Of a DNA stretch of 64,000 nucleotides, positions 55,911-60,223 are shown piece after piece; the first letter of the stretch is position 1; the number at the start of each line of letters is the position of its first letter. Both the position numbers and the translations under genes were made by a program. This stretch comes from Promethearchaeia archaeon (GTDB taxonomy: Archaea; Asgardarchaeota; Lokiarchaeia; Sigyniarchaeales; SOKP01), in NCBI GenBank assembly GCA_029856045.1, contig JAHQWG010000035.1, positions 1 to 64,000 on the forward strand, written 5' to 3'. The notes below the pieces were generated by a model. The model searched no databases. It saw nothing but the letters and a program-made list of their open reading frames with translations, and had not been told where the DNA came from.

Positions 55911-56780
55911 TTAACCAATCTTTTCTAAAATATCGCTTACTCTAGTTCTATGAAACTTAGTTCCCAACTCATCTGCAGGAATGCCCATTCCAAGAGCGAT
56001 TAATTCAGAAATGTAAAATATTGGGATTTTAAATTCCTCCTCGAATTTCTTAGATAAATCTCTCTGTTTTCCATCAAATTGTTGAAAACATGCAGGACAA
56101 TTGACAACCAAGCAATCAGCTCCTGCTTTTTTCACGGCATCCATCTTTTTCTTCAAGATTGCCATGCCATGATCCTCATACGCATTTGAAACTGATGAGC
56201 CACAACATAATGTTTCTTCTCCATAATCAACTACTGTTGCCCCACAAGCAGCAACAATCTCTTTAAGATCTATTGGATGCATAGGATCGTCAGTTTCCAT
56301 AACCTCAGAAGGACGCATATAGTGACAACCAGGATGACATGCGACTTTTAAACCTGATAATGGTTTCACTGTGGAATTTTTAATCTTTTCTAATTCACCT
56401 TTAAGCACACTAACAAAATGCTTTACATCAATAGTTCCTTTATATTCCTTCCCGATTTTTGATAATTCTTTATTAATTTTGTCCTTTTTCAGATTATCAT
56501 GTTTTAATGTATGATTAACTAGTTTTAATGTATTTGAACAGCCATTACAAAGAGAGATAATATCTTTTCCTTCAGATTCGGCTAATGCCAAATTACGAGC
56601 ACCTATTGCTAACCATCCATCATTATCAAAATTTGCAAAACCGGTTGGGTCAGGACAACACGAGAACGGAGCCTGAGAAGTTGCTATACCTAATTTATCA
56701 AAAATTTTTCTACAAGATGCTTCTATAAAAGGAATCCTATTGCCAATCAAACAACCTTCAAACATTTTATACTCTGCCAT
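55911..56780 (-). CDS. hdrB: Heterodisulfide reductase subunit B
   Basis: The product is 289 residues with two CCG domains that bind non-cubane [4Fe-4S] clusters. The first shows FSCCPDPTG and LCNGCSNTLK. The second shows ACHPGCHYMRP, TLCCGSSVSNAYEDHG and NCPACFQQ. HdrB is the catalytic part of HdrABC and reduces the CoM-S-S-CoB or an analogous disulfide. It is the last gene of the operon vhuG-vhuA-vhuU-hdrC-hdrB and begins six bases after hdrC, with an SD-like GGAG at the hdrC end. In a probable non-methanogen the disulfide substrate is unknown. Confidence 0.93.
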   Translation of the reverse strand: MAEYKMFEGCLIGNRIPFIEASCRKIFDKLGIATSQAPFSCCPDPTGFANFDNDGWLAIGARNLALAESEGKDIISLCNGCSNTLKLVNHTLKHDNLKKDKINKELSKIGKEYKGTIDVKHFVSVLKGELEKIKNSTVKPLSGLKVACHPGCHYMRPSEVMETDDPMHPIDLKEIVAACGATVVDYGEETLCCGSSVSNAYEDHGMAILKKKMDAVKKAGADCLVVNCPACFQQFDGKQRDLSKKFEEEFKIPIFYISELIALGMGIPADELGTKFHRTRVSDILEKIG

Positions 56781-56786
56781 TTTTCT

Positions 56787-57281
56787 CTACTCTCCTTTCA
56801 ATTTCTTATCAATTCCCATATTCTTCAATAATGTAGAAAGTTCATTTACATCAGGTGCAGCAACCGCTGGTAAACCAAGTTGTTCACGTCGTCTTTCTAT
56901 AGCAGGTTGAGATGGAATTGCTTTAGCATTTTCAAAAATTGTCTTTGCTTGGAGATAATAAAAATCTGGCGCATCTCCATTAGCAACGCTATGATTCTTT
57001 AATAATTTGAAAATCTCGGTTAATTCGATATTCTGTGGGCATACTTCATCGCATGTATCACAAATTGTACAACCCCATATGGCAATTTTTTCTGCTGAAA
57101 ATATTGCATCTTTAAAGCCAAGCAATGCATTTAAAATATTTTGTCTTGGATTGTATGCATTATCAGTAACTTCGGCAACGGGGCAATTATCAGTGCATCG
57201 ATTGCATTGATAACAATATTTGATCACACCACTCATATGCATATCAAGAACTTGCTTTCTAAATTCAAAATCTGTTGCCAT
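56787..57281 (-). CDS. hdrC: Heterodisulfide reductase subunit C
   Basis: This 164-residue protein from ATG 57281 (GTG 57293 would add four residues) has two ferredoxin-type [4Fe-4S] motifs. They are YCYQCNRCTDNCPVAEVT and CTICDTCDEVCPQNIEL, each CxxCxxCxxxCP. It passes electrons between HdrA and HdrB. Further family text: NPRQNILNALLG and GAPDFYYLQAKTIFENAKA-like HSVANGDAPDFYYLQ. Lies directly downstream of the selenocysteine gene vhuU and upstream of hdrB. HdrA is not in the window. Confidence 0.93.
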   Translation of the reverse strand: MATDFEFRKQVLDMHMSGVIKYCYQCNRCTDNCPVAEVTDNAYNPRQNILNALLGFKDAIFSAEKIAIWGCTICDTCDEVCPQNIELTEIFKLLKNHSVANGDAPDFYYLQAKTIFENAKAIPSQPAIERRREQLGLPAVAAPDVNELSTLLKNMGIDKKLKGE

Positions 57282-57327
57282 TTTTTCACACACGTTTTTT
57301 TATTTTTTTCCTGTTTTTTTATTTTTA

Positions 57328-57397
57328 TTGGTTTTAACCCATGCAAGGGCAGTTATATCTAATCTATTTTTTTTATTAGATATTCATCCTAAACCAA
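57328..57397 (-). ncRNA. Nested inverted repeats at the vhuU 3' end: SECIS candidate
   Basis: On the minus strand TTGGTTT (57397-57391, last codons of vhuU) pairs with AAACCAA (57334-57328). Inside that, ATATCTAAT (57383-57375), immediately after the stop, pairs perfectly with ATTAGATAT (57363-57355) around an A-rich 11-base loop. A small GCCC/GGGT hairpin follows at about 57336-57350. A 3' structured element is what an archaeal selenocysteine gene needs. The helix and AA-containing loop recall SECIS elements, but I could not place a full kink-turn (UGA/GA) core. Candidate only. Confidence 0.4.
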
Positions 57398-57533
57398 CAT
57401 TTAATTCACGTGAGTAAATTTCTTTACCGTCCTCATTCACTACGGTGATGTGGGCGGCACACGATAGTCAACAATCATAACATCGGACTATCATTTCTAA
57501 GAGATTTACCACTCCTTCAGGAATATCTTCCAT
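57384..57533 (-). CDS. vhuU: VhuU: selenocysteine-containing small subunit of split [NiFe]-hydrogenase
   Basis: Reading TGA (57470-57468) as Sec gives 49 residues: MEDIPEGVVNLLEMIVRCYD, then CULSCAAHITVVNEDGKEIY, then SRELNVGLG and a TGA stop. Residues 20-28, D-C-U-L-S-C-A-A-H, match the C-terminal DPCxxCxxH nickel-site motif of [NiFe]-hydrogenase large subunits, with Sec at the first Cys ligand and Cys for Pro. The upstream VhuA lacks this motif. Methanococcal Vhu hydrogenase is split in the same way, with Sec in VhuU. Position is in the operon between vhuA (62-base gap) and hdrC. ATG 57533 is preceded by a weak GTGA; an in-frame GTG at 57545 is possible. Ordinary gene callers would miss it. 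Confidence 0.85.
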
Positions 57534-57595: not shown

Positions 57596-58903
57596 TTATT
57601 TTATCCAAGGGTCTGGCAATTTTAATCCCTCCAATGCATTATCCTCAAATATCTGCTTAGCTACATGCATCAACGACTTCTCAATGCCAGCAATATTATG
57701 ATTTGTTGCGACTAACAGATTCAATTTCTTACAAATCCCATCTGCATCAGACCATATATGATATAACAACAATCCTCGAGGCGCTTCTGTAATTGCAATT
57801 CCTTCTGCTTCTCTTGGTTCAATATCTAATGTTTTACAATCCGGGTTGCATATGTCAGAATCACCAAGTAAACTCCCAACTATTTCTATTGCCTCTACTG
57901 TTTCAATTAATCGAGCCCAATGATATGCAAACGTATGATGAATAAGATCAGTTCCAATTTTAGCTCTCATAGCTTTTAATGCCTCATCCGCTAGTGGAGT
58001 AGCCATTTTATCAACACAATTAATCCTTGCTAAACAATTAGCACGATATATTCCATCTGGATAACCAGCGGGCTTATAATACATATGAGTTGCATATGAA
58101 TGAGCTGGAACATGTTCTCCTAAGGCATCTAAATAGTTATGAACATCATAATCTATTTTTTTACCTTCTAAATCAACTATACGAATATCTCCTTCGTAAA
58201 TATCATGAACTCCATTATTTGTCATCCCAAGATAATAAGTTGGAACGACCCCGACATTTGCTATTACATCCCAATAATCTTCTACTACTTTTAATCCAAT
58301 CTCTACAGTCTTTTTTGTAAATTCAACTTGTTCTGGAATTTGTTTAAGAAACTTTTGTCGAACATCCTCATCCATCGGTTTTTTCATACCTCCGACGATT
58401 GCTGAAATAGGATGTACAGATTTTCCACCAATCTCGGCACATAATTTCTGTCCGAAATCCATCATCTTTAAAGCCATTGCCCCAACATCAGGCATCTTAT
58501 TAATGACATAAACTATATTTCTTAATGCTGGATCTGCAAATGGACCAACTAAAAAGTCAGGTGCAGCTAATGCATAGAAATGCAATAAATGCGAGGAATA
58601 TTGTTTTGCATTTATCAATAATTTTCTCAATTTTAATGCTGGTGTTGGAATTTGAACATTCCATGCATCCTCAACAGCCTTAGTTGGAGTTAAATGATGA
58701 GGTATTGGACAAATACCACAAATTCTAGTAGTTATTCTGGGTACATGCTCACAATATCGCCCTTCACAAAACTTTTCAAAAAATCTAGTTGATGTGACAT
58801 TAAATTGAGCATCTTTAACTTTTCCATCATCTCCAATAACGATCCTGAGTCCTCCGTGTCCCTCAAGCCGAGTTATTGGTTCTACTATTATTTCTTTTAC
58901 CAT
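57596..58903 (-). CDS. vhuA: F420-non-reducing [NiFe]-hydrogenase large subunit (VhuA/MvhA), C-terminally split
   Basis: This 435-residue large subunit starts IIVEPITRLEGHGGLRIVI, the L1 region with RxxGH. It has TRICGICPIPHHLTPTKAVE, the L2 motif whose two Cys bind Ni and Fe. It ends GLKLPDPWIK, with the protein stopping right where a normal subunit has DPCxxCxxH. The last two metal ligands must therefore come from another chain, supplied by VhuU (57384-57533). Other family text: AHSYATHMYY and EAPRGLLLYHI. Belongs to the Mvh/Vhu type (group 3c) that feeds H2 electrons to Hdr. Three bases separate it from vhuG. Confidence 0.92.
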   Translation of the reverse strand: MVKEIIVEPITRLEGHGGLRIVIGDDGKVKDAQFNVTSTRFFEKFCEGRYCEHVPRITTRICGICPIPHHLTPTKAVEDAWNVQIPTPALKLRKLLINAKQYSSHLLHFYALAAPDFLVGPFADPALRNIVYVINKMPDVGAMALKMMDFGQKLCAEIGGKSVHPISAIVGGMKKPMDEDVRQKFLKQIPEQVEFTKKTVEIGLKVVEDYWDVIANVGVVPTYYLGMTNNGVHDIYEGDIRIVDLEGKKIDYDVHNYLDALGEHVPAHSYATHMYYKPAGYPDGIYRANCLARINCVDKMATPLADEALKAMRAKIGTDLIHHTFAYHWARLIETVEAIEIVGSLLGDSDICNPDCKTLDIEPREAEGIAITEAPRGLLLYHIWSDADGICKKLNLLVATNHNIAGIEKSLMHVAKQIFEDNALEGLKLPDPWIK

Positions 58904-58906
58904 TTA

Positions 58907-60223
58907 TTATTCACCTAAATTAAAATCTCGATTTGATGCTAATGTAAATTTATTAAATGTTCCGATTGGGTCCTTTACTTGTATAAAAAATTCTTCCTTA
59001 CTTAATTCTACATTGAAACTCTCTTTAATAGTTTTATAAAATCTTGTAGCTTGATCAATTACCCATTCTGTTTGTCCATAGCATCCTGTGCAAGGTGCAT
59101 TTACTTTGATACATAAACCTCCACAACCAGCTTTAGTTATTGGACCAACACATATATAACCTTGCTCTATAAAGCAATCTTCTTGATTTGGAATCCCCTC
59201 ATAATCTCTTTTTACTTTTGTCATTGTTCCTTTTCCTATTATTCTAGGACATGTTTGACAAACATTTGAGATCTCATGGAATTCGGGATGCATTGCTAAG
59301 AATCCGAGTAAATTCGTTGCGATTTCAGTGGTAATTGAAGGAATAGTTGCTAATGGTGTATCTGGTTTTCCTCTTTTTTTAATTTGCATCATAATATCAC
59401 CTGAGAGGTCAAATCCAGCCATTAATGGTACATTTAAGAATAAGGATAAAAACTCGAATAAATTCTTTTTATTACCAGAGCTGATATAATCAAGAGATTT
59501 TGTCATATCTAGTAGTTTTTGCGCTTTATCTGAAGCGTTTTTTGCTGGACCCATACATCCAACGCAAGGATCACCTTTATTTGTACATTTTAAAGAACAG
59601 CCTATACTAGTAACTGGTCCATAACATAAGACTCCATTATCCAATAAACAACCACTCTCTTTTAATACACAATCCTCACAAAAGGACTTCTCATTCATTG
59701 GAAAACCTTTTTGTCCTAATAAGAATTGAACAACTCCAACTATTTGCTCTGTTCTTGGTGGACAACCTGCAAGAAATGCATCTACTTTGATAACATCATC
59801 AACATTTACGACTTTATCTTCAAAACCAGGAACGTGTTGATCAGGAATTCGTTTAGTAGTTGCTGACTCAACCTCCATAAATTTTCTCATTTGAACTTCA
59901 TCTATGGGCCATTGGTTTGCCAATCCAGGAACATTACCATAACAAGCACAACTTCCAAAAGCAATAATTATTTTTGATTTTTTTCTTATCAATTTTGTGT
60001 TTGCCAAATCTTCTTTGGTCCTTATCATTCCTTCAATAAAGCCAACAACAATTTCTTCATCTTCTCTCGCAACTAAGGAATCATGTTTAAAATCTACAAC
60101 AGCAGGCCAATATACAATATCTAATGCTGGGAGTACTTGAAGTAAACCTAGATGTGCGTTTAATAGGCTCTGGTGACAACCCCAGCACGAACTTAATTGC
60201 ATAAAAGCTACTTTTACTGTCAT
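58907..60223 (-). CDS. vhuG: F420-non-reducing hydrogenase small subunit (VhuG/MvhG) with duplicated Fe-S module
   Basis: The product is 438 residues, against about 290-310 for ordinary MvhG. The proximal cluster ligands are C13/C16 (SSCWGCHQS), C92 or C94 (FGSCACYG) and C154 (LAGCPPRTEQ). Then an eight-cysteine module (C182, 185, 192, 200, 209, 213, 220, 223) is followed by a second one (C322, 325, 350, 358, 367, 371, 378, 381). From the third Cys onward their spacing is identical. Each module should hold two [4Fe-4S] clusters, so the electron wire has one extra unit. First gene of the operon. The promoter should lie in 60224-60300, which has TATATATA-like stretches. Confidence 0.9.
   Translation of the reverse strand: MTVKVAFMQLSSCWGCHQSLLNAHLGLLQVLPALDIVYWPAVVDFKHDSLVAREDEEIVVGFIEGMIRTKEDLANTKLIRKKSKIIIAFGSCACYGNVPGLANQWPIDEVQMRKFMEVESATTKRIPDQHVPGFEDKVVNVDDVIKVDAFLAGCPPRTEQIVGVVQFLLGQKGFPMNEKSFCEDCVLKESGCLLDNGVLCYGPVTSIGCSLKCTNKGDPCVGCMGPAKNASDKAQKLLDMTKSLDYISSGNKKNLFEFLSLFLNVPLMAGFDLSGDIMMQIKKRGKPDTPLATIPSITTEIATNLLGFLAMHPEFHEISNVCQTCPRIIGKGTMTKVKRDYEGIPNQEDCFIEQGYICVGPITKAGCGGLCIKVNAPCTGCYGQTEWVIDQATRFYKTIKESFNVELSKEEFFIQVKDPIGTFNKFTLASNRDFNLGE

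Follow-up and report, generated by a model that had tools for sequence, protein, structure and literature searches.

A vhuU gene with a predicted selenocysteine codon in a Lokiarchaeal hydrogenase operon, and a covarying extra hairpin in its SECIS element

VhuU and FrhA selenoproteins of Asgard archaea were reportedly described by Mariotti in 2016, and the vhuU gene treated here, the same gene in the same lineage, is one more member of this group. The VhuU protein is of an already known kind, as its selenocysteine-bearing form is established for Asgard archaea, and for this lineage as the original prediction had stated, in the main-text passages of two later papers (PMC11227280, PMC11291895), one of which mentions a length of about 50 amino acids (Valentin-Alvarado 2024, PMC11291895). 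The split VhuU of methanogens (NCBIfam model NF041786; chain M of Protein Data Bank entry 9sfi) is likewise encoded by a separate small gene after vhuA and, in a residue by residue alignment, likewise carries selenocysteine as the first ligand of UxxCxxH. It differs in having a proline before the selenocysteine (DP-X in 9sfi) where the Lokiarchaeal protein has a cysteine (DCU), and in the kind of SECIS element that goes with it. Methanogen SECIS elements consist of one hairpin with a kink-turn-like GAA_A bulge (PMC11881835) and, like the element described below, are located 3' at a short distance from the gene end. The Asgard model, as given in the accessible text, comprises a core, an upper stem, an apical loop, an internal loop and a lower stem (PMC11227280), and a review presents the Lokiarchaeal SECIS with one apical loop (PMC9499178). 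A Lokiarchaeal SECIS was nonfunctional in M. maripaludis (PMC11881835), and SBP2 homologues are reported to be lacking in Asgard genomes (PMC11227280). How archaea recognise SECIS elements without SBP2 is an open question, and the Asgard elements have been proposed as the ancestors of the eukaryotic ones.

The window analysed here is the whole stretch of 64,000 nucleotides from contig JAHQWG010000035.1 of a Promethearchaeia archaeon. An interval of about 300 bases separates the end of vhuA at 57596 from the start of hdrC at 57293, and the original prediction had placed in it a minus-strand gene for 49 residues which becomes visible only if a TGA is read as selenocysteine. Translation of minus strand 57533-57384 in this manner confirms the frame and yields MEDIPEGVVNLLEMIVRCYDC-U-LSCAAH-ITVVNEDGKEIYSRELNVGLG, with the selenocysteine TGA at 57470-57468 as codon 22 and a TGA stop at 57386-57384. 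Several relatives have an in-frame stop immediately 5' of the position aligned with the methionine, which makes the ATG at 57533 the probable start.

Upstream of this gene, vhuA (57596..58903, minus strand) encodes a hydrogenase large subunit without the C-terminal nickel-site motif. It matches NF041785 with E 7.3e-127, yet below the curated cut-off; its best Protein Data Bank match is chain g of 9sfi, a protein of 418 residues of the split type, and among named genomes its nearest relatives are Candidatus Lokiarchaeota MAGs with 91% identity. The small frame directly after it is a separate open reading frame with a C-terminal nickel-site motif of the form UxxCxxH and a TGA at the first ligand. 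The VhuU model NF041786 matches the peptide with E 1.6e-14 and 53.4 bits, less than its curated cut-off of 70 bits; this shortfall limits the name and not the homology, since U was written as C in the query and NF041786 is an equivalog-level model. In alignments with the 27 residues of 9sfi chain M and with the fused MvhA of 5odc (DPCLSCATH), the TGA is found opposite the nonstandard residue X of the former and the cysteine of DPCLSC in the latter, and the peptide is therefore the missing C-terminal nickel site. Two further claims were thereby sustained, namely that D-C-U-L-S-C-A-A-H fits the motif lacking in VhuA with selenocysteine at the first ligand, and that the enzyme is split as in methanogen Vhu, for which the homology to split VhuU (NF041786, 9sfi chain M) is direct. 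After His28 the peptide continues with an extension of 21 residues (57387..57449, minus strand); chain M of 9sfi ends one residue beyond the corresponding histidine, and by analogy the tail is probably cut off at maturation.

VhuU copies were gathered beside VhuA relatives, which are themselves present in 70 of 77 Asgard genomes, with a search pattern that permitted cysteine as well as TGA at the selenocysteine codon. All of the VhuA-adjacent copies in Asgard genomes have the TGA (55/55), embedded in D-x-U-x-x-C-x-x-H, and cysteine at this position was found only in fused paralogues with DPCxxC ends. The original prediction could have fallen on a merely degenerate site in relatives with a complete motif in VhuA; instead the relatives keep a conserved vhuU and a VhuA without the C-terminal motif. 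Among 37 close vhuU copies a stretch spanning the TGA shows 2790, 834 and 9861 differences at codon positions 1, 2 and 3, which is a coding pattern. Read by the standard code the frame would close after codon 21, and one might take the TGA for a true stop and the site for what is left of a broken vhuA C-terminus or for a gene of a 21-residue peptide. This is highly improbable, as past the TGA the frame keeps its coding character in many genomes, where most changes fall in third positions, the TGA is invariant, the SECIS element is conserved and the genome contains a selenocysteine machinery.

This machinery was looked for in the genome of 3.34 Mb, which is rated 100% complete. A selenocysteine tRNA with a UCA anticodon scored over the Rfam cut-off, the SepSecS gene adjoins the tRNA gene, and SelB is encoded on the same contig. 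SelD requires one in-frame TGA in its motif FGUSCK, and four hdrA-mvhD pairs require TGA as well. A single PSTK-like gene scored 147 bits, the cut-off being 290, so that of the components expected elsewhere in the genome tRNA-Sec, SepSecS, SelB and SelD were found and PSTK is present as a sub-threshold match. The occurrence of in-frame TGA in several genes would also fit a general reassignment of this codon, for example to tryptophan, in place of recoding at chosen sites. The probability of this is close to nil, since the in-frame TGA codons stand at known selenocysteine positions (SelD GUSCK, HdrA, MvhD CxxU, VhuU UxxC), the stop of vhuU itself is TGA, and the tRNA with the UCA anticodon is typed as a selenocysteine tRNA. 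Conservation, the selenocysteine machinery and the placement of TGA at selenocysteine sites thus led to the rejection of both the broken-gene and the reassignment reading. There is little doubt that the 49-residue frame is a real gene, the vhuU of a split F420-non-reducing [NiFeSe] hydrogenase of the VhuAGU type, for which selenocysteine insertion and activity are predicted.

Codon 21 (57473-57471), which adjoins Sec22, encodes cysteine, giving D-C-U where the textbook nickel-site motif reads D-P-C; like the SECIS element described below, this feature goes beyond the original prediction. In the 55 Asgard copies the residues at this place are DCU in 51, DPU in two, and DFU and DNU in one each. 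No discussion of the DCU motif was found in the main-text passages on Asgard VhuU (PMC11227280, PMC11291895). A cysteine next to selenocysteine at the nickel site may have a redox role, and it poses the testable question of whether a Se-S bond forms which protects the site.

The SECIS element (57327..57399, minus strand) starts within the last vhuU codons and extends into the 3' untranslated region. Its unconstrained minimum free energy fold of -16.8 kcal/mol consists of exactly three helices, P1, P2 and P3, which are also indicated by covariation. The 5' strand of P1 (57391..57398) lies in the V-G-L codons and forms eight pairs, with compensatory changes, with the 3' strand at 57327..57334. 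The AUGA core (57384..57387) overlaps the UGA stop of vhuU. It is followed by P2 (57355..57383), a eukaryote-like arm of nine pairs with the A-rich apical loop AAAAAAAAUAG of 11 nucleotides, after which AA forms the [G/A]A part of the core. P3 is an additional hairpin, GCCC-UUGCAU-GGGU (57337..57350), supported by the fold and by covariation. Nine pairs of P1 and P2 have two-sided changes, a result reached in 0/500 shuffles. Since AUGA is kept in two relatives (L040, L070) where vhuU stops at an upstream TAG, it is conserved as RNA and not merely as a stop.

A scan of Rfam around vhuU matched no SECIS family, and on inspection of the fold the GAA_A bulge between two stems of euryarchaeal SECIS was absent from 57327-57399. 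The element does have the features of the Asgard eSECIS-like type I, namely a core GA_[G/A]A, an upper stem of 7-15 base pairs, an apical loop of 8-20 nucleotides, a free energy below -5 kcal/mol and a place near the gene end. With this type as described in the accessible text (Huang 2024, PMC11227280) it shares the AUGA_AA core, the 9-bp upper stem, the A-rich loop of 11 nucleotides, the lower stem UGG/CCA and the overlap of AUGA with the stop. The published type is, in the same text, without a further helix, whereas the vhuU element has the covarying P3 in what is the internal loop of the model.

Some relatives deviate in this region. In the vhuU copy L025, which retains the SECIS, the tail 3' of the nickel-site motif is interrupted by an in-frame TAA; this may reflect either an error of sequencing or a shorter tail. 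In one related family (L046, L048, L049, L051) vhuU stops with TAA or TAG, and in three of its members (L048, L049, L051) the AUGA core lies farther downstream, apart from the stop.

As the published models contain only core, upper stem, apical loop, internal loop and lower stem (PMC11227280, as far as its text is accessible), P3 might be located outside a correctly recognised two-helix, eukaryote-like SECIS of vhuU, being either fortuitous or a distinct signal that belongs to the next gene. Individual P3 hairpins are indeed barely better than shuffles and not significant one by one, and as single-hairpin shuffling gave no clear answer, covariation was used. In vhuU, selD and mvhD elements, whose neighbour genes differ, P3 occupies the same place, flanked by the 3' strands of P2 and P1. 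In the genome studied here it is found in all four mvhD elements and, by eye, in the selD element as CACC-UGUGU-GGUG. A geometric search recovered P1-P2-P3 in 78 of 88 elements, although this is no test by itself because the search selects for pairing; 74 of the 78 parsed elements have a P3 loop with GC. When the selD P3 arms were cut by outside anchors, they paired at 91.5% compared with 71% for permuted arms (0/5000), with 31 two-sided changes as opposed to 9.6. For mvhD, all four pairs of P3 were complete in 88% compared with 48% at equal offset freedom (0/3000). The arms therefore fit their own partners better than permuted ones, and two-sided changes were seen in all four P3 pairs in both alignments A3 and A5. 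In view of these data a position of P3 outside the SECIS is improbable, with only a small chance left to it.

A covariance model built solely from vhuU elements (R1) found only vhuU in its own genome. It matched 15 of 25 loci carrying mvhD elements with a best E of 2.3e-10, and these matches were 93% paired with two-sided changes in 4/4 P3 pairs. In a joint alignment the covariation score was 0.732 versus 0.214 (0/500 shuffles), a value which leans toward the model because the alignment had been fitted to it, and to which related sequences do not contribute independently. With the joint model (R2), only vhuU and three hdrA-mvhD loci were picked from the 3.34 Mb with E < 1e-15, the next match having E 0.7; its training set had included these four elements or close relatives of theirs. 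A model containing P3 thus selects selenoprotein genes from a whole genome, and P3 marks the true borders of the SECIS. The same scan missed the SECIS of selD and that of the fourth mvhD. Two weak R2 matches (C8, C25) do not coincide with any selenoprotein gene and were regarded as noise. RNAalifold applied to 18 close vhuU elements paired the P3 region differently, a discrepancy which is resolved with the selD, mvhD and distant vhuU sequences. The fourth selenocysteine-containing mvhD (L094, contig C44) has an additional TGA near its end, and its SECIS, missed by the models, is longer and divergent with a P3 of AUCCC-UGCAA-GGGAU.

P3 is not mentioned in the accessible texts on Asgard SECIS, and relative to these texts the vhuU SECIS with P3 looks like a new variant of the architecture. 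A covarying third helix common to the selenoprotein gene classes examined offers a concrete target for the question of SECIS recognition. We tentatively propose, as an idea somewhat more apt to fail than to hold, that Asgard SECIS elements are three-way junctions and that selenocysteine recoding needs P3, with its conserved GC-bearing loop, as a hitherto undescribed component, for instance because the missing archaeal SECIS-binding factor, SelB or the ribosome docks there. At codon 22 the UGA would be read as selenocysteine, which SelB and tRNA-Sec would deliver under the direction of the SECIS, at that moment still folded some 70 nucleotides ahead of the ribosome. On reaching codon 50 the ribosome would have opened P1 and the core, and the UGA there would for this reason act as a stop. 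VhuU would then complete VhuA, with Sec22 and Cys25 as the C-terminal nickel ligands and a CxxC contributed by VhuA near its own N-terminus.

The remaining genes of the operon lie on the same strand. The small subunit gene vhuG (58907..60223), recognised by a profile match, encodes 438 amino acids in which the cysteine-rich C-terminal segment is duplicated (31% identity over 55 residues, E 6e-11); its relatives have 435-466 amino acids. Profile matches also identified an hdrC-like gene (56787..57293) and an hdrB-like gene (55911..56780). HdrA and MvhD are absent from the operon and are found elsewhere in the genome as selenocysteine-containing pairs. The combination of vhuAG with hdrBC, together with MvhD and HdrA elsewhere, corresponds in gene content to the HdrABC-coupled group 3c type, and the putative complex would probably send electrons from the hydrogenase via MvhD and HdrA to HdrBC. 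Four vhuA operons among the relatives are without an adjacent vhuU. They represent a second operon type of Lokiarchaeal relatives (L026, L032, L034, L036), in which hdrC follows directly 3' of vhuA. Two genomes (G016, G022) contain such an operon in addition to a vhuU-bearing one, and one VhuU may be common to two VhuA proteins.
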